NCBI GenBank assembly: GCA_902781895.1
Contig: CACZLA010000002.1
Coordinates: 27,369-91,368 of the forward strand
Direction of reading: 5' to 3'
Length of the DNA: 64,000 nucleotides
Source: an uncultured Lachnospiraceae bacterium
GTDB taxonomy: Bacteria > Bacillota > Clostridia > Lachnospirales > Lachnospiraceae
Shown here: positions 49,524 to 62,162 of the stretch, in pieces
Layout of the letters: each line of letters starts with the position of its first letter
How positions within the stretch are numbered: position 1 is the stretch's first letter
Made by a program: the position numbers and the translations under genes
The notes under the pieces: generated by a model
Database searches by the model: none
What the model saw: the letters and a program-made list of their open reading frames with translations, nothing else
Told to the model about the DNA's origin: nothing

Positions 49524-49556
49524 AAAACTTCCTATCTTTGTATAGGGAGTTTTTTT
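49524..49556 (+). terminator. Rho-independent terminator after the MutS-like gene
   Basis: AAAACTTCCTAT and ATAGGGAGTTTT pair with one mismatch around a CTTTGT loop, followed by a run of seven T. Confidence 0.8.
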
Positions 49557-49645: not shown

Positions 49646-50020
49646 ATGACAATTCAGGAATTATACAATATTATTGATGGGGACTATGACCAGGCTATCC
49701 GTGTACTTAGGATGGATAAGCTGGTGGATAAACATATAAGAAGGTTTACGTCGAATGGAATTATGGACAGACTGCTTGCGGCCGGCAAAAGTATGGATCC
49801 GACGGCTCTTTTTGAGGCGTCTCATGCCATGAAGGGTGTATGTGCAAATCTGGGACTGGTTAAGCTTTCGAATGGGGCTTCGGAGATTACCGAAGAGTTT
49901 CGTCCGGGAACGGAGAGACAGCTTTCTGATGATGAGGTTAAAGAGAGAATAGAAAATATTCGGGAGTTGCATATTCAGACGGTAGAGGGTATAAAGCAAT
50001 ATGTGCAATCATGTGAATGA
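49646..50020 (+). CDS. Hpt-domain histidine phosphotransfer protein
   Basis: A 124-residue all-helical protein. H60 lies in [15 protein letters not shown], the Hpt phosphorylation motif HxxKG. It should carry phosphate between a receiver domain and another receiver. It has no other domains. It is the first gene of the operon that includes two hybrid-type sensors, and its end overlaps the permease-kinase start by 20 nt. A strong AAGGGGGAG ribosome binding site precedes the ATG. Its likely partners are the receivers of genes 50001 and 56279. Confidence 0.88.
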
Positions 50021-52862
50021 TCAGAGGAAATATCTGGGAGTTTTCGGTGCCTGGGCACTTGCATTCGGATGCAGCGTGGGCTGGGGATCTTTTGTTATGC
50101 CGGGAACTACATTTCTCCCAATCGCAGGACCGGTAGGTACTGCGATCGGTCTAAGTCTTGGCGGGTTGGTAATGCTTCTTCTCGCCGTAAATTATCATTA
50201 TCTTATGAATCGTTATCCTGATGGTGGTGGAGCCTATACCTATACTAAGAAGGCTTTCGGCTATGATCATGGATTCCTCAGTGCGTGGTTCCTCATACTC
50301 ACATATATAGCAATCATATGGGCAAATGCGACCGCTCTTCCGCTTATAGCAAGAACTCTTCTGGGTGAAACCTTCCGGTTTGGTTATCTGTACGAGATAG
50401 CCGGTTATCCTATATATCTCGGAGAGTTTCTGCTTGCCATTGGTGCTTTGGTTCTTGCTGCGTTAGTCTGCCTGTTCAGAAGACCGGCTGCATGGACGCA
50501 GATAGTTATGGCGGTTCTGCTATTTATGGGAGTGGTAATTTGTTTTGTTGCTGCTTCTGGAAAGTCTACAGTAAATGGATATACACCGGCCTATGCCCCG
50601 GGAAAAGGAGCTGTGAGTGGAGTGTTTACTATTTTCGCTCTTGCACCATGGGCATTTGTCGGATTCGAATCGATATCTCATTCAGCTGCAGAAGCAAGGT
50701 TCTCGTTAAAGAAATCTTTCCGAATCCTTGCGGTTGCAGTAATAACAGCAACTATCGCATATGTGCTTCTATCGTTGCTAGCTGTGAAGGCTCTGCCGGA
50801 GGGCTGCAGCTCATGGACAGACTATATATCAAATCTGGGGGAATACTCGGGTGTTGCTTCTCAGCCGACATTCCATGCGGCTGATGCACTATTGGGTGAT
50901 ACCGGAAGTCTGCTTCTGGGTGTTGCAGCATTGGGAGGAATATTTACCGGACTGATCGGTAATTACATCGCCCTCAGCCGACTTATTGCGTCTCTTTCAG
51001 AAGACGAGCTTTTTCCGGAGTGGCTGGGAAAGAAAAGGGGCTTCGTTCCGCGAAATGCAATCCTGTGTATACTTGCAATATCTGCAGTCTTTCCGTTTTT
51101 GGGACGTACTGCTATCAGTTGGATAGTGGATGTTACAACAGTAGGTGCGACTATAGCTTACGCGCTTGCATCAGCGTCTGCGTTGAGAACTGCGCGAAGC
51201 GAAAATAATAAAAAGTATGAAATATTCGGGCTGCTCGGACTTATAGTTTCGGTGCTTTTTGCTGTGGAATTTCTTATCCCGAATATCATCTCAATCAGTA
51301 CGCTTTCAACGCAGTCTTATCTGATTCTTTCGATATGGAGCATATGCGGACTTTTGTATTTTCGAGTATATCTTCACAAGGATCATGAGAGACGTCTGGG
51401 AAAGTCCGTCGTGGCATGGGTGGTACTGTTGGGACTGATCATATTTACTTCAACTGTGTGGATGCACCAGACTATTAACAAGGTGTTGGAAAAGTATCAA
51501 AACGATTTTGACAAGATCCATCGATCTATGCATACTGTCAGCTTGATCCAGATGGGACTTATAGTTTTATCGCTTATTATTCTTTTGAATATATATAGAG
51601 TTATGCAGATCAGAGAAAGAAAAATTGAGATTGAAAAGGCTCGCGCCGAGGAAACAAGCCGGGCAAAATCCAGCTTTCTTTCCAATATGAGTCACGAGAT
51701 CAGAACTCCGATGAATGCCATAATCGGTCTTCAAAGCATCGCGCTTCGGGATCCGGAACTGACACCGGGGACCAGAGATAATCTGGAAAAAATAGGAGCC
51801 AGTGCAGATCATCTGCTGGGACTTATCAATGATATACTGGATATGAGTCGAATTGAATCCGGAAGAGTGGCTCTGAAAAACGAAGAGTTTTCTTTCAAGG
51901 AATTTCTGGATCAGATAAATGTCATTATAAGCGGTCAGTGTCAGGACAAGAAGCTGCACTATAAATGCGATGTTGTAGGAGAGGTAAAGGATTATTACGT
52001 AGGAGATGATCTGAAGCTGAAGCAAATAATGATAAATATTCTCGGAAACTCTGTGAAGTTTACAGAGTCTCCCGGAGATGTGACATTTACAGTGGAACAG
52101 CTAAGTGAAGAAGATGGAATATGCAGGATGAGATTTATCGTACAGGATACGGGAATCGGTATGGATCCTGAATATATTCCGAAGATATTTGAAACCTTCT
52201 CACAGGAGGATGTCAGCAATACGAATCAATACGGCGGAAGTGGTCTGGGAATGGCTATTACAAAAAATCTTGTGGATATGATGGATGGTGAAATCCTTGT
52301 AGAGAGCGAGAAGGGAGCCGGTTCCGCATTTACGGTAATTGTTCCTCTGGAGATAAAGAAGGAAGCAGAACTAAGTGAGGATATTGATAATATAACTGAT
52401 GAGACACCTGCACATGCAGAGGAGGCTCTAAGTGAAGAAGAAATATCGCAGACTCTCTCAGGAAAGAGAGTTCTTATGGCAGAGGATGTGGATCAGAATG
52501 CAGAGATACTTGCCGATCTTCTGGAGCTGGAGGATATACACTGCGCCTGGGCTAAAAATGGCGAGGATGCAGAGATGATGTTCTCGAAGAGTGAACCGGG
52601 ATTCTACAGTGCGATACTGATGGATGTACGAATGCCGGTGATGGATGGTCTTGAAGCGACTCGTGCAATACGAGCCCTGGATCGTCCGGACGCTAAGACG
52701 ATACCGATCATAGCAATGACAGCAAATGTGTTTGATGAGGATGTGGAGCGGTCGTTTGAGGCCGGGATGGATGCACATTTATCAAAACCGGTTGAACCGG
52801 ATAAACTATATGAGACTATGGCTCGCCTGATTATGGAGCAATCATCAGAGGAGGTGGACTAG
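50001..52862 (+). CDS. APC-family amino-acid permease fused to histidine kinase and receiver
   Basis: A 953-residue fusion. Residues ~8-450 are an APC permease with about 12 TM helices; [16 protein letters not shown] is the broken TM1 substrate site and [16 protein letters not shown] lies after TM2. Two further TMs (~470-490 and 515-537) lead into HisKA with [15 protein letters not shown] (H565), HATPase with [11 protein letters not shown] (~678), DTGIGM (~716) and GGSGLGMAI, then a receiver (~822-945) with D875 in ILMDVRMP. This suggests a transporter-like sensor (transceptor). All kinase motifs are intact. The GTG at 50013 is another possible start. Confidence 0.9.
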
Positions 52863-52863
52863 A

Positions 52864-55800
52864 GTGCAAAAACATAAAATAACAAACCGGATAATAGTAT
52901 CCCTGATGCTTATAATTATGGCACTTAATTCTTTTGCTGTGCTCCCTGCTAAAGCAGAGGAAAAGGATCATAAGAAGGTGCGGGTTGGCTGGTATGATTC
53001 ATCCTTCTGTTATTATGACAGCTTTGGAAGAAGATGTGGTATCGACTACGAATATCAGCAGAAAATATCTGCATATACCGGCTGGGAATTCGAGTATGTG
53101 GAGGACAGCTGGCCAAACCTTTTTGAAAAACTTAAGAATGGTGAAATAGATCTTCTTAGTGACGTTTCTTATAAAAAGGAGAGAGAAGAGTTTTTGTTGT
53201 ACCCTGATCTTCCGATGGGTACAGAGTCGTATTATATCTATGTTGGAATGGACAACAGAGAAATAACTGCAGATAATCTGCAATCACTAAACGGAAAACG
53301 TATTGGTGTTAATAAAGGAAGTATTCAGGCAACATTTCTGGAGGAGTGGACAGAGAAGAACGGTATTAAGCTGGATATAGTTCCGCTGGTTGTTGAAGAA
53401 GATGAGTCCATGAATATGGTTGCCCGTGGAGAAATAGACGGATATGCTGCTATCTTTTCTTTTGATTCTGAGGAAAAGGTGGTTCCGATATACAGGATCG
53501 GTGGATCGGACTATTACTATGCAGTTAATAAGGATCGACCGGATCTTTTGGCTGATCTGAACATGGCTCTTGCTGAAATACAGGATGAGGATCCGTTCTT
53601 TAATCAGAAAATATCTGAAGACCGTTTGTATAGTGAAAGAACAAATGCACTTCTGACGCCTGCGCTGGAGGATTGGATCAAGGAACACGGTGCTATTCGT
53701 ATCGGATACAGAGATAATTACCTGCCATTCTGTGATAAGGATGACAAGACAGGTGAACTGACGGGAGCTCTGAAGGATTATCTCGCTCATGCAGAGAACA
53801 ACCTCAGTAATGCGGGTATCAGCTTTGAAACTATTCCGTATGGATCGACCCAGGAGGCATTGGATGCGCTGAATGCAGGAGAGGTAGATGCGATTTTTCC
53901 TGTTTATTTAAATACATATGATGCTGATCAAAAAGGTATAAGACTTACTGACGCAGCTATGAAGACGGAAATGAATGCAATAATTCGGACGTCGGATAGC
54001 AGAACTCTGTCAAAGGACAGTGAGATTACCTTTGCTACCAATGAAGGTATGATGAACATAGAAACTTTTATAATGGACGAGTACCCGAAAACTCAGAGGA
54101 AACCTTATAAGGGACTGGAAGCATGTTACAAAGCGGTGTCTGATGGAAAAGCTGACTGTGTTCTTGTAAGTAATTACAGGATTCCTTTTGCAGAGGAAAC
54201 CCTAAAGAAGTACAAGCTTTATTCTGTTCCGACAGGAGAATCGATGCCATTTTCCTTTGCAGTTAATAAGTGGGATACAGAAGTATATTTCATTCTTAAT
54301 AAAACGGTAATAACAACTAAAAGTGCAGATATGGATTCTGCGCTTGCCTCCTATATGAAGAGTGATAATAAGGTTTCCTTTAAACAGTTTCTGGATGATA
54401 ACTGGCCGATAGTTTTAGCAATCATTATTGTGGTTTTTGCTATAGTTGTATTCCTGCTTTCACAGAAGATGAGAGCGGAGAGAACTGCCGCAAGACAGAG
54501 AAGGCTTTTGGCTGAGGTTGCAGAGATTGCAGATCTTAAACAGACGATTACAGCGCTTCTCGATAACATGCCGGGTATGAATTTCACCAAGGACGCTGAG
54601 ACAGGACAGTATCTCGCTTGTAATCAGGCCTTTGCGGAGTTTGCGCATAAGAAGGATCCATCAGAGGTGGTGGGACATACACCTGAGGAACTATTTGATG
54701 CTGAAACGGCAAAACGTTTCGTCGAGGATGATAAGATTGCGATTTCTATGGATGAGCCATATATCTTCTTTGAGGATATGGCGGATAAGGATGGCATTCA
54801 GAAACAGATAAAAACGACAAAGCAGAAATATACTGATAACAATGGTCGTCTCTGTGTTCTGGGTATGTACCAGGATGTCACAGACTCATTCCGTATATTC
54901 AGAGATGATGCAAGAACAAAGCAGTCTTATGAAAAAGCTCGAAGCTCTGGTGTTATTTTTACTCATATAGCACAGACCCTGGCTCAGGGATATATTGATC
55001 TGTATTATATAGACCTTAATACAGAAGAATTTGTGGAGTTTCGTACAGATGCCGAGAGTGGAAGTCTTGTTGAGGCGCGTCGTGGCTGGCATTTCTTTGA
55101 ACTATGTCTGGATGAAATAGAGGATCATATCTATCCTGAAGATCGAGATATGGTAAAGGCGGCAATGGATAGAAAGACTCTCGTATCAGAATTGGATCAG
55201 AACGGCACATTTATGATGTCTTACCGTGTTATAGGTAAAAATGGCCCGACTTATGCAAGCATGAATATAACAAGGATGCATGATGACCGATATATCATCC
55301 TGGGTATAACGGATGTTGATGAGCAGATGAAGGAGCATAATGCAGCACAGAAGGCTCTGGAGGAACAGGTTGCATACAACAGGATCAGTGCACTTGCCGG
55401 TGATTTCTTCTGCGTCTATGTCGTTATTCCGGAGACGGGTCAATATCGCGAGTTTAGTGCAACAGCCGGCTTCAATACATTTGACCTTCCTGAAGAGGGA
55501 GAGGACTTCTTTGCTGATTACAGAGTACAGGCCCTTACAATGGTATATCAGGAGGATCAGAGCCGATTCCTTTCAATGCTCACCAGGGAAAATGTTCTGG
55601 CTGAGGTTGAACAGAGTGGCATATTCACTCTCAGCTATCGTTTAATGACGGATGGGGAGCCACGCTATGTTCAGCTAAAAGCTGCCATGGTAGATGAAAA
55701 AGAAGGTCGCCGTCTGGTAGTAGGTGTTAATGATATCGATTCACAGGTTCGTCAGGAAGAGGAATATAGCCGACGTCTTGCTCAGGCGAGAATAGAAGCA

Positions 55801-56271
55801 AATATTGATGCGCTTACGGGAGTAAAGAATCGTAATGCTTATCGAGTATACGAAGAGAGACTCAATGCTCAGATTGAGATAAACCGTGCCCCTGACTTTG
55901 CCATAACAATACTTGATGTAAATGACCTGAAAAAGGTCAATGATAATGAAGGCCACAAGGCAGGAGATCAATACCTGCGTGATGCCTGCAAGATCATATG
56001 TACTACATTTAAACGAAGTCCTGTTTTCCGCGTGGGCGGTGATGAGTTTGCTGTTCTTTCGCAGGGTGACGATTATGCCCGCATTGAGGAACTGGTAGAG
56101 CAGATGAATGAACACAATATAGATGCAATAGAAAATGGTGGAATAGTTATCGCGCTCGGTATGGCAAAATATGAGCAGGATTCGAAGGTTGCTCCGGTAT
56201 ATGAGCGTGCGGACCAGAGAATGTATGATAACAAGAGTGACCTCAAAGCGAGAAAAAAACAAGAAGGATAA
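52864..56271 (+). CDS. Two-SBP, PAS-like, GGDEF diguanylate cyclase
   Basis: 1135 residues. After a signal peptide (1-31), two solute-binding-protein family 3 domains lie at ~37-250 and ~275-510 (second begins IRIGYRDNYLPFCDKDD). One TM (~519-541) leads to a PAS-like domain (LLDNMPGMNFTKDAETGQYLACNQAF), two further PAS-like units, and a GGDEF domain with intact GGDEF at 1058-1062 and DALTGVKNRNAY. No RxxD inhibitory site precedes it. Extracellular amino acid or similar ligand binding probably controls cyclic-di-GMP synthesis. The start is GTG after GGAGGTG, one base after the previous stop. Confidence 0.9.
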   Translation: MQKHKITNRIIVSLMLIIMALNSFAVLPAKAEEKDHKKVRVGWYDSSFCYYDSFGRRCGIDYEYQQKISAYTGWEFEYVEDSWPNLFEKLKNGEIDLLSDVSYKKEREEFLLYPDLPMGTESYYIYVGMDNREITADNLQSLNGKRIGVNKGSIQATFLEEWTEKNGIKLDIVPLVVEEDESMNMVARGEIDGYAAIFSFDSEEKVVPIYRIGGSDYYYAVNKDRPDLLADLNMALAEIQDEDPFFNQKISEDRLYSERTNALLTPALEDWIKEHGAIRIGYRDNYLPFCDKDDKTGELTGALKDYLAHAENNLSNAGISFETIPYGSTQEALDALNAGEVDAIFPVYLNTYDADQKGIRLTDAAMKTEMNAIIRTSDSRTLSKDSEITFATNEGMMNIETFIMDEYPKTQRKPYKGLEACYKAVSDGKADCVLVSNYRIPFAEETLKKYKLYSVPTGESMPFSFAVNKWDTEVYFILNKTVITTKSADMDSALASYMKSDNKVSFKQFLDDNWPIVLAIIIVVFAIVVFLLSQKMRAERTAARQRRLLAEVAEIADLKQTITALLDNMPGMNFTKDAETGQYLACNQAFAEFAHKKDPSEVVGHTPEELFDAETAKRFVEDDKIAISMDEPYIFFEDMADKDGIQKQIKTTKQKYTDNNGRLCVLGMYQDVTDSFRIFRDDARTKQSYEKARSSGVIFTHIAQTLAQGYIDLYYIDLNTEEFVEFRTDAESGSLVEARRGWHFFELCLDEIEDHIYPEDRDMVKAAMDRKTLVSELDQNGTFMMSYRVIGKNGPTYASMNITRMHDDRYIILGITDVDEQMKEHNAAQKALEEQVAYNRISALAGDFFCVYVVIPETGQYREFSATAGFNTFDLPEEGEDFFADYRVQALTMVYQEDQSRFLSMLTRENVLAEVEQSGIFTLSYRLMTDGEPRYVQLKAAMVDEKEGRRLVVGVNDIDSQVRQEEEYSRRLAQARIEANIDALTGVKNRNAYRVYEERLNAQIEINRAPDFAITILDVNDLKKVNDNEGHKAGDQYLRDACKIICTTFKRSPVFRVGGDEFAVLSQGDDYARIEELVEQMNEHNIDAIENGGIVIALGMAKYEQDSKVAPVYERADQRMYDNKSDLKARKKQEG

Positions 56272-56278
56272 ATAGCCT

Positions 56279-58936
56279 ATGTATTATTCTACAATCGGTG
56301 TGCTGGCCATTCTGATACTCTTCATAGTGAATTGGGATATGTTAAGAGGCTTCAATGTGTCTTTTGACAAGCCTGCATGGAATGTGTACAGGAGATTTCT
56401 GTTTGTTGTTCTGATCTATTACATCACAGATGTTTTCTGGGGAATCCTTGAGAGCCAGAAGCTGTCAGCAGCACTATTTTCTGATACAACTATATACTTT
56501 GTAGCTATGGCACTGGGTATATCCTTTTGGGCGGAATATACAGTTGCTTATCTGGATGAGAAGACTACCTTTGGGCGATTTCTGATCTATGCCGGTCGAT
56601 TTATCGCCTGTGCGATTACTATACTCGTTGTTATTAACATCTTCGTTCCGGTATATTTTACTGTTGATGAGAATTGTGTATACCGTGAGCTTCCGGTTCG
56701 TGATGTGATGCTGGTCTGCCAGATTCTGATGCTTCTTACTATTTCCGTGTATGCTCTTTCCTCGATGTTCCGTGTGGATAAGTCGGTCGGAAAACGTACA
56801 CGATATAAGATACTGGCGTCGTTTGGAATCATTATGGCTGCGTGCCTTTTTGTTCAGCTATGGTTCCCGTATCTGCCACTTTACTCCATAGGCTATATGC
56901 TCGGAACCTGTCTGCTGCACTCTTTCGTTGCAAGTGATGAGAAAGAGGAGCATAAGCGTGAGAAGGAAGAAGCAAAAAAGATTACTGAGATTAAGGATAG
57001 ATTTAAATCACTTTTGGATAACATGCCTGGAATGACATTTACGAAGGATGCAAAAACCGGAGTTTATCTGGCTTGTAATCAGGCATTTGCAGAGTATGCG
57101 CATAAGGATAGTCCGGATGGAGTAGTTGGATTTACGGACGTACAGATCTTTGATGCTGAGACGGCAGCACATTTTGCTGAGGATGACAGGATTGCACTTT
57201 CGCTTAGTAAGGCATATGTATTCTATGAAGATGTTACGGATGCCGAAGGAAACCAAAGACAGCTGCAGACTACGAAGATCAAGTACAAAGATATCATGGG
57301 ACGCCTCTGTGTACTTGGTATGTGTCAGGATGTTACTGATATGGTACGTATTCAGCATGAGCAGGCTATGACGAAGGAAGCCTATGAGAGTGCTGTCAGC
57401 TCGGGACTGATGTATACGCATATCGCCCAGACGCTGGCGCGAGATTATATAGATATGTACTATGTCAATACGGATACAGAAGAGTTTATCGAATATGGAA
57501 TGGGAGAGGAGAGCGGAACACTTTCCGAGATACGCCGGGGCTGGCACTTCTTTAGTGACTGTAAAGCGGAGCTTGCAGAAAATGTATATCCTGATGACAA
57601 GGAGTCATTTTTGCAGGCTATGAACCGTAAAACTCTTATGAAGGCACTTGGGCGGAAGGATACATTTATCATGACATACCGTCAAAACGGCAGTGATGGA
57701 CCGGTTTATGTCAATATGAAGATATCCCGTATGATCGATAAGGACGAGCCTTATATAATACTGTGCTTTACAAATGTTGATGCCGAGATGCGCGAGACTG
57801 TGGCAAAGAGTATTGCCCTGGCAGATGCCCTTAAATCAGCAGAGCAGGCAAATAAAGAAAAGACAAGCTTCCTTTCGGGAATGAGCCACGAGATCCGAAC
57901 TCCGATCAACGCAATAATAGGACTTCATACTCTTGCTCTTAAGAATGAGAATCTGGAGACCGGAACACGTGATTATCTGGAGAAGATAGGCGACAGTGCC
58001 CAGAATCTTCTGGGATTAATAAATGATATACTTACTCAAACCGGCTCCACGGTTAATCCTCAGGGTATAGAGGAAACCTTAAGCAGTCGATATCTATCCG
58101 GAGAGATAAATCCGGAGGCTGTGCGTATTCTGGTTGTGGATGATAACCCCATCGAGGTGGAGCATGCAAGAATAGTGCTGGAAGAGGTTGGAATTGAGGC
58201 AGATACCTGTACAAGCGGACAGGAAGCTCTAAGAAAGATGGAGATTCAGCACGCTAAGCATACGCCGTATAATATAGTTCTCATGGACTGGATAATGCCG
58301 GGAATGAGCGGACAGGAAACATCTGCTGAAATCAACAAGCTGTATGAAGATGAGAGTACGGTTGTTGTGCTTACGGCAAATAACTGGGACAATATCAGAG
58401 AGGATGCAGAGAGTGTCGGAGTAGATAATTTCCTTTTGAAACCGCTTTTTGCTTCAAGTGTTTTGGAGAATCTTCAGCAGATTGCCCGTCGTAACAAGAT
58501 AAATATTTTCAAGGAAAAGAAGCGTGCGAAGCTGGCAGGTCGCCGTATAATTCTGGCAGAGGATGTTGAGATCAATGCGGAGATAATGATAGACACACTT
58601 GAGATAGAGAATATCAAGGTCGATCATGCTTCCAACGGAAAAGAGGCAGTTGAACTGTTCGAGAAGAGTACGGCCGGTGTATATGCGGCTATATTGATGG
58701 ATGTCCGTATGCCTGAGATGGATGGTCTTGAGGCGGCAGAGATAATCCGTGCTATGGAAAGGGAGGACGCAAAGAAGATTCCAATTATAGCACTCACTGC
58801 AAATACATTTGATGAAGACGTTCTGAGATCTTTGCAGGCAGGTATGAATGCGCATCTGAGTAAGCCTGTTGATACAGATCAACTGATAAGAGTTCTGGGT
58901 GAGCTGGTTTATGAGGCAGAGTATTCTGATTGTTAG
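56279..58936 (+). CDS. Multi-TM sensor with DHp domain and two receivers but no HATPase
   Basis: 885 residues. About seven hydrophobic helices span 1-225, followed by a PAS-like module near 240-520 that closely matches the one in the GGDEF protein. [15 protein letters not shown] places H537 in an intact DHp helix. After [10 protein letters not shown] the sequence passes in ~30 residues to a receiver (~612-735, D670 in VLMDWIMPG) and then a second receiver (~760-880, D808 in [12 protein letters not shown]). The ~120-residue ATP-binding domain is absent. It starts 8 nt after the GGDEF gene. It could act as a phosphate acceptor from the permease-kinase via the Hpt protein. Confidence 0.88.
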   Translation: MYYSTIGVLAILILFIVNWDMLRGFNVSFDKPAWNVYRRFLFVVLIYYITDVFWGILESQKLSAALFSDTTIYFVAMALGISFWAEYTVAYLDEKTTFGRFLIYAGRFIACAITILVVINIFVPVYFTVDENCVYRELPVRDVMLVCQILMLLTISVYALSSMFRVDKSVGKRTRYKILASFGIIMAACLFVQLWFPYLPLYSIGYMLGTCLLHSFVASDEKEEHKREKEEAKKITEIKDRFKSLLDNMPGMTFTKDAKTGVYLACNQAFAEYAHKDSPDGVVGFTDVQIFDAETAAHFAEDDRIALSLSKAYVFYEDVTDAEGNQRQLQTTKIKYKDIMGRLCVLGMCQDVTDMVRIQHEQAMTKEAYESAVSSGLMYTHIAQTLARDYIDMYYVNTDTEEFIEYGMGEESGTLSEIRRGWHFFSDCKAELAENVYPDDKESFLQAMNRKTLMKALGRKDTFIMTYRQNGSDGPVYVNMKISRMIDKDEPYIILCFTNVDAEMRETVAKSIALADALKSAEQANKEKTSFLSGMSHEIRTPINAIIGLHTLALKNENLETGTRDYLEKIGDSAQNLLGLINDILTQTGSTVNPQGIEETLSSRYLSGEINPEAVRILVVDDNPIEVEHARIVLEEVGIEADTCTSGQEALRKMEIQHAKHTPYNIVLMDWIMPGMSGQETSAEINKLYEDESTVVVLTANNWDNIREDAESVGVDNFLLKPLFASSVLENLQQIARRNKINIFKEKKRAKLAGRRIILAEDVEINAEIMIDTLEIENIKVDHASNGKEAVELFEKSTAGVYAAILMDVRMPEMDGLEAAEIIRAMEREDAKKIPIIALTANTFDEDVLRSLQAGMNAHLSKPVDTDQLIRVLGELVYEAEYSDC

Positions 58937-58993: not shown

Positions 58994-59140
58994 GTGGACT
59001 TGATTGAAGTTAAGTCCGGGAATGATTATAAGAACCATAATGCATTGGATAATCTCTACTCTCCGTAGATTGTACTCGATTCAGAAGAACGAAAAGCGCT
59101 TGAAAAGGCGGCGGATATGCTGTTTGGGAAAGATGAATAA
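58994..59140 (+). pseudogene. Remnant of a DUF4143-type ATPase gene
   Basis: One frame reads VDLIEVKSGNDYKNHNALDNL, then a TAG at 59066, then VLDSEERKALEKAADMLFGKDE and TAA. The first part recalls the nuclease-like C-terminal region (VEVKSGxDYKRHxAL) of DUF4143/AAA ATPases. There is no start codon or upstream ATPase domain, so it is a decayed tail. The rest of the 58937-59214 gap holds the following terminator. Confidence 0.45.
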
Positions 59141-59143
59141 AGA

Positions 59144-59192
59144 AATCAAAAAAACTTGTTTGTCCAACTTGAACAAACAAGTTTTTTTGATT
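59144..59192. terminator. Strong bidirectional terminator
   Basis: Two exact 20 nt arms (59144-59163 and 59173-59192) with core ACTTGTTTGT/ACAAACAAGT and A7/T7 tracts form a long perfect stem with a 9 nt loop. Confidence 0.88.
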
Positions 59193-61409: not shown

Positions 61410-62162
61410 ATGGTCACAAAGACAATGTTTAAAAATGCGCTGATTGAACTTGGGGTCGAGAAGGGTATGGTATTAGAGGTTCACTCATCACTTAGCAGTT
61501 TTGGAGAACTTGAAGGAGGAGCTGAAACTGTGATAAGTACGCTGAAAGAGATTGTCACGGAGGAAGGAAGTATTTTCATGCCGGCGCTTAGACTGAGCCC
61601 GGAGCTACCACTTTCTGAAGAGGATAAAGAACTTGGAATCACAGTAAAAATAAAAGTATTATCGCCCGATTCTGACAGAACAGCTATGGGGATTATTGCA
61701 GACACTTTCCGAAAACTTCCGGATACTTATACCGGACAAAACACTATAAGCACTTCAGGCTGGGGCAGGCACGGAAAAGAAGCATTAACGGGCGGTCTTG
61801 ATTATCCAATCCATAATGGCGGTAAGGCACTTATGCTCGGAGTTGATATATATAAGCTTACTGCAATGCATTATGTGGAAGGCATAACACCGGAAGATAT
61901 TAGTAAGAAGTTTGAACCGACAGAGGAAATAAATCAAAAGTATCCACCTGATGAGTGGTTTGTGGAAGCCGGCCAACCACCCGTAAAAGCATGGTATAAA
62001 ATCCAGGAAATGGCTTATGAAAAAGGACTCATCAGAGAAACTGCTATCGGTGATTGCAAGGTGATGTTTTTTGATATATGGTCAGTGGTTTCGCTGTATG
62101 AAAATGAGTTAAAGCGTGATCCGTACGGGTTATGGGGATTGAACCAGGATGAATGTAACTGA
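61410..62162 (+). CDS. AAC(3)-family aminoglycoside N-acetyltransferase-like protein
   Basis: A 250-residue member of the Antibiotic_NAT family. LEVHSSLSSFGELEGGAETVI is the N-terminal acetyl-CoA region (residues ~22-43); GWGRHGKEAL, PIHNGGKALMLGVD and the histidine in TAMHYVE are family features around the active site. Members acetylate the 3-amino group of aminoglycosides, but many environmental homologues act on other amines, so resistance is not established. Length is close to the usual 260-270. Confidence 0.8.
   Translation: MVTKTMFKNALIELGVEKGMVLEVHSSLSSFGELEGGAETVISTLKEIVTEEGSIFMPALRLSPELPLSEEDKELGITVKIKVLSPDSDRTAMGIIADTFRKLPDTYTGQNTISTSGWGRHGKEALTGGLDYPIHNGGKALMLGVDIYKLTAMHYVEGITPEDISKKFEPTEEINQKYPPDEWFVEAGQPPVKAWYKIQEMAYEKGLIRETAIGDCKVMFFDIWSVVSLYENELKRDPYGLWGLNQDECN

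Follow-up and report, generated by a model that had tools for sequence, protein, structure and literature searches.

A permease-linked histidine kinase, a tandem solute-binding GGDEF protein and an ATPase-less hybrid sensor in a gene block conserved in a Lachnospiraceae genus

How might an amino-acid permease, a phosphorelay and cyclic-di-GMP enzymes work together, and what is a hybrid sensor that lacks the ATPase of a kinase doing beside them? Both questions are raised by four consecutive genes in a 64,000-nucleotide stretch of DNA (the window; contig CACZLA010000002.1, positions 27,369 to 91,368, forward strand) from an uncultured Lachnospiraceae bacterium (assembly GCA_902781895.1), whose genome, G000 in our set, comprises 2.35 Mb in 87 contigs and is 91.7% complete. 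They encode a stand-alone histidine phosphotransfer protein (Hpt; gene 1), an APC-family permease joined to a hybrid histidine kinase (HK; gene 2), a GGDEF protein with tandem solute-binding domains (gene 3), and a seven-transmembrane (7TM) hybrid sensor without an ATPase (CA) domain (gene 4). We find a conserved set of domains, catalytic residues and gene order, repeated loss of the CA domain from gene 4, purifying selection on gene 4 afterwards, and cyclic-di-GMP enzymes that recur as fusion partners or neighbours. The reading that we favour, with about even confidence, is that the block encodes a solute-sensing APC “transceptor” phosphorelay that feeds cyclic-di-GMP control, with the ligand, the route of phosphate and the co-transcription that we infer below.

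Make-up and distribution of the block

A first-pass annotation, made from the sequence alone, had described four tightly packed genes on one strand and named their parts, and it did so correctly: four co-directional open reading frames (ORFs) lie on the + strand at the positions it gave, and Pfam (threshold E≤0.001) assigns the domains listed in Table 1. The phospho-site His of the Hpt is kept in all 22 aligned rows, within an HxxKG motif in 21 and as HVLKE in the other. Gene 2 matches AA_permease_2 (1.2e-25), HisKA (1.5e-18), HATPase_c (4.7e-26) and Response_reg (2.7e-21), with two further hydrophobic stretches, seen by eye, between permease and HisKA. The AA_permease_2 and AA_permease profiles extend over the whole permease domain, placing it in the APC family, and it is distantly similar to a solved bacterial-type amino-acid transporter (6f34, 2e-10; 5oqt, 3.2e-10). 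Its VGxG stretch in transmembrane helix (TM) 1 and GFES stretch in TM6, positions that we presume to be functional, are conserved. Among the 23 rows of gene 2, the HisKA His is present in all 21 that are readable there and the receiver (REC) Asp and Lys in 19 of 19, while the N, G1 and G2 boxes are retained with single substitutions in a few rows (19-21 readable rows per motif). Judged by these residues, gene 2 is a hybrid histidine kinase.

Gene 3 is a predicted diguanylate cyclase (SBP_bac_3 in two stretches, 2e-22; PAS_4; GGDEF, 2.1e-21). Its A-site motif, GGDEF, which is that of an active cyclase, is kept in 26 of 26 aligned proteins; no RxxD inhibitory site, an optional feature of such cyclases, was found at what we take to be its position, where all 26 have FKRS. 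The first solute-binding (SBP) domain carries the Arg of the xxxR motif, presumably the residue that holds the alpha-carboxylate in amino-acid-binding SBPs, in all 24 readable rows of the 26; no matching Arg was seen in the second SBP domain in the same alignment. The PAS modules of genes 3 and 4 look much alike, and gene conversion between them was considered and rejected, with mean identity at 49.9% within genomes and 49.3% between them (26 genomes). In one genome, G038, gene 3 is split into two overlapping frames between the PAS-like modules (L128:4848-8104).

To place the block in its genus, we compared 61 genomes, incomplete ones included, counting as gene 2 all frames above 400 aa, some of which are cut by contig ends. 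Nine genomes (G000, G051, G005, G043, G047, G038, G011, G016 and G028) carry the complete set on a single contig with its order unchanged, so the block is not peculiar to the window. In six others (G027, G034, G003, G059, G060 and G052) a contig ends inside the block, making the order compatible rather than established, and in G002 the order is gene 3, gene 4, another HK, Hpt, gene 2. Gene 2 occurs in 23 of the 61 genomes (in 21 of them with an Hpt) and gene 3 or 4 in 32; 17 genomes have both, six have gene 2 only (one of these, G036, has gene 3 in pieces) and 15 have gene 3/4 only. Because each is found without the other, we regard the block as two modules, gene 2 mostly with its Hpt and genes 3/4, that are often joined. 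The single solute-sensing phosphorelay proposed in the first-pass annotation therefore stands as a conserved signalling block, but not as one indivisible unit.

Similar modules are combined differently in other Clostridia, as BLAST against the window domains among 79 loci revealed (with Pfam for both genes of L055 and the first of L049). In five loci (L049, L054, L056, L058 and L061; L053 is broken), a 7TM-PAS-GGDEF gene with the PAS-like modules of gene 3 is followed by one for an APC-PAS-HisKA-HATPase-REC-REC protein, the permease of which is 39-41% identical to that of gene 2. In L055 the first gene has the SBP-SBP-PAS-GGDEF form of gene 3 and the second encodes the same kind of APC protein; in L057 the APC protein is followed by an EAL gene. 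The permease kind of gene 2, the relay module of gene 4 and the cyclase module of gene 3 are thus re-dealt in a two-gene unit.

This evidence bears on the possibility that two independent modules merely sit side by side, the Hpt and permease kinase signalling elsewhere, the cyclase and 7TM hybrid acting alone, and their arrangement reflecting convenience or co-regulation. Their separate occurrence in six and 15 genomes would suit such an arrangement, as would the fragment-sized frames of gene 2 that remain beside genes 3-4 in six loci (L140, L141, L157, L167, L168 and L169) and the lack of a receiver in gene 3. However, the two modules co-occur above chance (Fisher p=0.016 over the 61 genomes, ancestry ignored), their order is identical in nine genomes, and other Clostridia fuse the permease to gene 4's relay module right beside a gene-3-like cyclase; we consider independence unlikely, if still worth keeping in view.

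Loss of the ATPase domain from gene 4

Gene 4 matches PAS_4, HisKA (1.9e-14) and Response_reg (two stretches, 7e-43), with no HATPase_c at the Pfam threshold and a deletion visible in alignment with its relatives; by sequence, it would therefore not be a functional histidine kinase. The AlphaFold model has a mean predicted local distance difference test score (pLDDT) of 75.7 and a predicted TM-score (pTM) of 0.34. Its 7TM domain (pLDDT 85.3), which has a beta hairpin between helices 4 and 5, belongs to no Pfam family above cut-off (stray matches at E 0.18-0.93); the same type of domain is also fused to GGDEF domains elsewhere. All 50 PDB matches listed by Foldseek are 7TM bundles of G-protein-coupled receptors (E 0.003-0.019, TM-score 0.41-0.64 by query length), but with a best E-value of no less than 0.003 we rejected kinship as too weakly supported, the likeness being perhaps one of shared topology.

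We aligned 31 gene-4 proteins, one of which (G034p) is the second piece of a broken gene. Frames below 500 aa (L166 of G052, cut by a contig end, and the first piece of L165) and the repeat copies L142 and L136 were left out of the counts, and the trees were additionally built without G034p. Of the 31, 16 (15 plus G034p) have the CA domain and its motifs, while the domain is degenerate in four that have lost ATP-lid and/or N-box residues (G030, G046, G047 and G051), and deleted in eight (G000, G003, G005, G009, G013, G028, G043 and G057); two more proteins (G053 and G056) stop near HisKA and have no receivers, and that of G025 is cut by a contig end. In a tree made without the CA columns (30 rows, 856 columns), the intact-versus-not character changes seven times, five of these changes being forced by well-supported branches; a single clade of all 14 CA-defective rows is rejected (p 5e-6), and a single clade of the eight deletions weakly so (approximately unbiased test, p=0.027). 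Adding five CA-bearing outgroup proteins and omitting the 7TM part (35 rows, 612 columns) gives six changes, three of them forced, with p 1e-8 for the 14 defective rows and 0.18 for the eight deletions. One ancestral event behind all 14 is thereby excluded, while one ancestral deletion behind the eight full deletions alone is not clearly excluded. The deletion junctions, inspected letter by letter in five genomes, differ between the window, G005, G043 and the mutually similar pair G028/G057. Given that the outgroup relatives have the domain, loss is the likely direction, and the trees indicate that the kinase-less gene 4 is derived and that the defect arose more than once. The first-pass annotation had called the protein kinase-less; its kinase-bearing relatives show that this was not how it was originally built. 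An assembly artefact is an unlikely cause, as the domain is missing from eight genomes, including the single-contig G005, and the inspected junctions differ. In two loci (L159:4473-8922 and L161:3253-7717) gene 4 ends near HisKA, and a distinct HK-REC gene (923-929 aa) begins directly after it, slightly overlapping its end, which looks like a replacement of the relay part.

What remains of gene 4 appears to be maintained. All 28 proteins with receivers retain the Asp and Lys in each of the two, and the HisKA His is kept in 27 of 31 (the exceptions are G046, where it is Tyr, G009, G053 and G056) and in 10 of the 14 CA-defective proteins, including that of the window. With a phosphorylatable His in its DHp domain and its CA domain gone, gene 4 has the sequence features of a phosphotransferase-type protein. 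For HisKA, REC1 and REC2, omega is 0.09, 0.08 and 0.09 in the CA-less pair G057/G028, 0.14, 0.09 and 0.05 in the CA-less pair G043/G005, 0.32, 0.17 and 0.09 in the CA-less pair G013/G009, which lacks gene 2, and 0.27, 0.11 and 0.05 between the window and its nearest relative G051, whose CA is degenerate; the two CA-bearing pairs give 0.09 and 0.16, 0.15 and 0.20, and 0.13 and 0.06. These values are rough, as synonymous distances are high and some pairs are saturated (G000/G043), but their pattern marks HisKA as the looser part of gene 4 and the receivers as the tighter. We conclude from them that the remaining domains are under purifying selection, and we propose that gene 4 is a phosphorelay hub rather than a dead gene.

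Gene 4 might instead be one half of a split kinase, heterodimerising with gene 2, the ATPase of which would phosphorylate the gene-4 His in trans. Over 72 residues, the HisKA domain of gene 4 shares 62% identity with that of gene 2, CA-defective proteins keep the His in seven of seven cases with gene 2 and in three of seven without it (p=0.07), HisKA omega is higher in G013/G009 than in G043/G005, where gene 2 is present, and a heterodimer of hybrid kinases, RetS-GacS, is a precedent (PMC4866733). Yet the association of the His with gene 2 is weak, the rows are related by descent, and G013, G030 and G057 retain the His without an intact gene 2. Nor does HisKA omega follow gene 2 consistently, being 0.27 in G000/G051, both of which have gene 2, and 0.09 in G057/G028, where G057 has fragments alone; and LadS signals without heterodimers (PMC4866733). 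We find this arrangement doubtful. That the loss of the ATPase is a first step in the pseudogenisation of a redundant hybrid kinase seems very improbable: a graded series from intact through degenerate and deleted to truncated forms, the absence of the His and both receivers from G053 and G056, and HisKA omega values of up to 0.27-0.32 in two CA-defective pairs would fit decay, but long open frames, omega of 0.05-0.32 (mostly below 0.15) on every remaining computable domain in the CA-defective pairs, the intact receivers and the occurrence of the CA-less form in the single-contig genome G005 speak against it.

Cyclic-di-GMP links and the proposed working

Beyond the genus, APC-HisKA-HATPase-REC proteins were found in at least eight of 391 other genomes sampled from the order, for which the 17 longest fused frames were fetched (L185, L186, L187, L189, L192, L193, L194 and L195). 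The same kind of permease is also fused to GGDEF (L188), to GGDEF-REC-GGDEF-EAL (L145 and L146, and by BLAST also L190, L071 and L104) and to an HD domain (L191). Moreover, at most a few genes separate APC-HK-REC from a REC-GGDEF-EAL and/or Hpt gene in L193, L194 and L195, in L124 and L126 from the genus, and in L065, L067 and L094 (the neighbours in L067 being an Hpt and a cut REC, and the neighbour in L094 lying on the opposite strand), and an EAL-GGDEF gene adjoins that of L187. Because of these domain re-fusions and nearby REC-GGDEF-EAL genes, cyclic-di-GMP is the likely currency of the block. The cyclic-di-GMP arm postulated in the first-pass annotation holds to that extent, but its GGDEF protein has no receiver and nothing in the sequence wires it to the relay. 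In the window genome there are 33 GGDEF and 15 EAL matches, together with seven c-di-GMP-I riboswitches, three of which lie within 7 kb of contig 31 (L203; 302-377, 4231-4306 and 7052-7127) before genes for a Listeria-Bacteroides-repeat/choline-binding protein, a double C-type lectin protein and a 189-aa ORF.

An odd and unrelated combination occurs elsewhere in the order, in different genera, where an iron-containing alcohol dehydrogenase is joined to an amino-acid permease (L196:3519-6179 and L201:8877-11576), with similar long permease frames in L197-L200.

In the working that we propose, the gene 2 permease would bind an amino acid or comparable solute, or let it pass, and thereby alter the attached kinase, and phosphate would travel from the gene 2 His to its own REC, on to the Hpt and from there to further receivers. 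Likely acceptors would be REC2 of gene 4, since it is 58% identical to the REC of gene 2, and a REC-GGDEF-EAL enzyme encoded elsewhere in the genome. Having lost its ATPase, gene 4 would start no phosphorylation; with its HisKA and two receivers it would serve instead as a sensor and phosphate hub anchored in the membrane, able to take up phosphate, hold it, hand it on or drain it away. Gene 3, the tandem-SBP cyclase, would make cyclic-di-GMP from a solute input of its own, and the output may act at least partly via riboswitches on surface-type genes. The ligand, the direction and partners of phosphotransfer, the coupling of gene 3 to the relay and the riboswitch output we infer from these arrangements, and the overall interpretation of the first-pass annotation is to this degree partly supported.

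Several results weigh against this proposal. The aligned TM5 stretch of the permease has no Lys, a position that we likewise presume to be functional, so gene 2 may not transport. Pfam finds neither a receiver nor HisKA in gene 3, so that gene order and fusions are what tie it to the relay. By BLAST, the APC-HK-REC genes of L185, L186, L189 and L192 have no Hpt or EAL gene beside them, nor do those of L066, L090, L096 and L100, among which some loci are short, and the window genome has no PilZ match. Its sole other short Hpt lies between a REC-GGDEF-EAL gene and a hybrid kinase on contig 14 (L143) and is 30% identical to the window Hpt; with that identity, and with a hybrid kinase of its own, the L143 enzyme is an uncertain target for the window relay. 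HisKA is less constrained than the other domains of gene 4 in G000/G051 (omega 0.27 versus 0.05-0.12). Some genomes in which gene 2 is missing or fragmented still have the CA-less gene 4 (G009, with Arg in place of the His, G013 and G057), which means that gene 2 is not its only possible phosphate source or a necessary partner. Finally, the state of CA is unassociated with the presence of gene 2 (8:7 versus 8:7, p=1, with G037 and G041 scored as lacking gene 2 though their contigs start or end beside gene 4), and on this count we rejected a trade-off in which gene 4 drops its CA domain since gene 2 supplies one.

Boundaries, surroundings and known systems

The intergenic distances are -20, +1 and +7 nt for genes 1-2, 2-3 and 3-4. 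The first-pass annotation had given overlaps or spacings of 1-8 nt. The 20-nt overlap depends on a gene 2 start that is simply the first start codon of the frame. Hpt and gene 2 are +5 to +233 nt apart in the eight relatives, so the true start in the window may lie slightly downstream of 50001. Terminator-like sites flank the block, as had been noted; the consensus scan that scored them gave 26 sites in the region against 10.2 ± 3.0 in shuffled sequences. Genes 1-4 are presumably co-transcribed as one unit. Among up to 25 best NCBIfam models per protein, no equivalog scored above cut-off, and the Hpt had no match.

Table 1. Features of the block (window positions)
Feature	Position	Strand	Basis
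Gene 1: stand-alone Hpt, 124 aa, HAMKG phospho-site motif	49646..50020	+	Pfam PF01627, 1.8e-6
Gene 2: APC amino-acid permease + HisKA + HATPase + REC, 953 aa, “transceptor” hybrid kinase	50001..52862	+	Pfam
Gene 2 APC permease domain (AA_permease_2)	50034..51278	+	Pfam; phmmer
Gene 2 HisKA	51663..51863	+	Pfam
Gene 2 HATPase_c	52002..52352	+	Pfam
Gene 2 REC	52470..52817	+	Pfam
Gene 3: tandem family-3 SBP domains, TM, PAS + PAS-like modules, GGDEF (predicted diguanylate cyclase), 1135 aa	52864..56271	+	Pfam
Gene 3 first SBP_bac_3	52984..53589	+	Pfam
Gene 3 second SBP_bac_3	53659..54378	+	Pfam (two stretches); bounds as used in homologue comparison
Gene 3 GGDEF	55798..56241	+	Pfam
Gene 4: 7TM-PAS-PAS-like-HisKA-REC-REC, HATPase missing, 885 aa	56279..58936	+	Pfam, alignment, AlphaFold model
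Gene 4 7TM sensor domain	56279..56968	+	AlphaFold model, Pfam search, Foldseek
Gene 4 HisKA (DHp), His retained	57860..58036	+	Pfam, alignment
Gene 4 junction lacking HATPase (CA); low-confidence linker in model	58037..58123	+	Alignment, AlphaFold model
Gene 4 REC1, Asp + Lys retained	58124..58492	+	Pfam, alignment, model
Gene 4 REC2, Asp + Lys retained	58547..58894	+	Pfam, alignment
Terminator-like hairpin, 12-bp stem, upstream of block, after MutS-like gene	49524..49553	+	Consensus scan
20-bp inverted repeat, terminator-like, downstream end of block	59145..59191	scored on -	Consensus scan

Between gene 4 and the downstream repeat, positions 58996-59140 look by eye like what is left of the C-terminal end of a further gene; nine stops interrupt the single frame checked. 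Further along, 61410-62162 encodes a predicted aminoglycoside 3-N-acetyltransferase family protein (Antibiotic_NAT, 1.1e-29), and 19699-19865 matches Clostridiales-1 RNA (RF01699, 9e-27), a family for which we know of no role.

Closest to gene 2 are the SLC5-STAC transceptor kinases CbrA, CrbS and RpuS, which join a solute transporter and a histidine kinase in one polypeptide with nutrient input (PMC13022988, PMC9100948); such unions are rare, with CbrA named as an example, according to a 2026 preprint (PMC13022988). Gene 2 likewise joins a transporter domain to a histidine kinase, but it has no SLC5 or STAC match in Pfam (E≤0.001) and thus falls outside that class: its transporter is an APC amino-acid permease, it is a hybrid with a REC, its Hpt is separate, and it is accompanied by cyclic-di-GMP genes instead of a DNA-binding regulator. 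In the 5TMR sensor kinases, which have the fold of an energy-coupling factor (ECF) S-component, a transporter-type membrane domain acts as sensor and is also joined to PAS, GGDEF, EAL and REC, and one architecture includes an NRAMP-like transporter domain (PMC11109136). The APC permease of gene 2 sets it apart from the S-component fold of 5TMR. For gene 4, the nearest counterparts are PhyT/PhyP, ChpT and Spo0B, HK-derived phosphotransferases that keep HisKA/DHp, have a degenerate ATPase, and pass phosphate on without making it (PMC5898713). What distinguishes gene 4, a putative phosphotransferase by its sequence, from these proteins is its pair of receivers, its 7TM-PAS sensor and the repeated loss of its CA domain among near relatives. 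In RcsC/RcsD, phosphate runs from a hybrid kinase to another sensor's phosphotransfer part. LadS and GacS are related in the same way (PMC4866733). Both pairs differ from the block, in which the Hpt stands alone and gene 4, as second sensor, keeps receivers and has no Hpt. As for gene 3, BvgS and EvgS are tandem Venus-flytrap (VFT) sensors, with family-3 solute-binding domains outside and a signalling enzyme inside. Among cyclic-di-GMP proteins with SBP_bac_3, RmcA, which senses L-arginine, is the studied case (PMC8846402). Gene 3 differs from all three in that its tandem SBPs are joined to a GGDEF cyclase and both kinase and EAL domains are lacking. Paired receivers around cyclic-di-GMP are known from PleD and ShkA of Caulobacter. 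The best Foldseek matches of the gene-4 model are PleD, with ShkA tenth, but gene 4 has neither CA nor GGDEF.

No APC permease-histidine kinase fusion was found in the titles and abstracts of the best-ranked literature, a search that most subscription journals lie outside, and the word “permease” is absent from the text of the review cited above for RmcA (PMC8846402). Transporter-kinase fusions, transporter-like sensors, HK-derived phosphotransferases, kinase-to-sensor relays and SBP_bac_3 cyclic-di-GMP proteins are thus all known; their combination and the APC class were not met in the literature searched. This agrees with the first-pass remark that no system with this exact set had been described, although related make-ups occur in several other Clostridia. 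It is possible, though we hold this with clearly less than even confidence, that Clostridia evolved a class of APC-permease transceptor kinases, distinct from the SLC5-STAC class and with cyclic-di-GMP as their dedicated output, within which a hybrid kinase lost its ATPase time and again while the rest was retained, either as a phosphate hub gated by its sensor or as the acceptor in a split kinase that the permease kinase feeds.

If an APC permease is indeed used as the SLC5 transporters are, with messenger enzymes apparently as its output, how transport becomes signalling would be a question for another transporter family and another lineage as well. The relatives of gene 4 offer a natural series, from intact through degenerate to deleted ATPase, for studying the change from kinase to phosphotransferase. 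Lastly, as many of the records compared name rumen or gut samples, and cyclic-di-GMP riboswitches of the window genome precede surface-type genes, attachment may be a plausible trait to examine in these bacteria.

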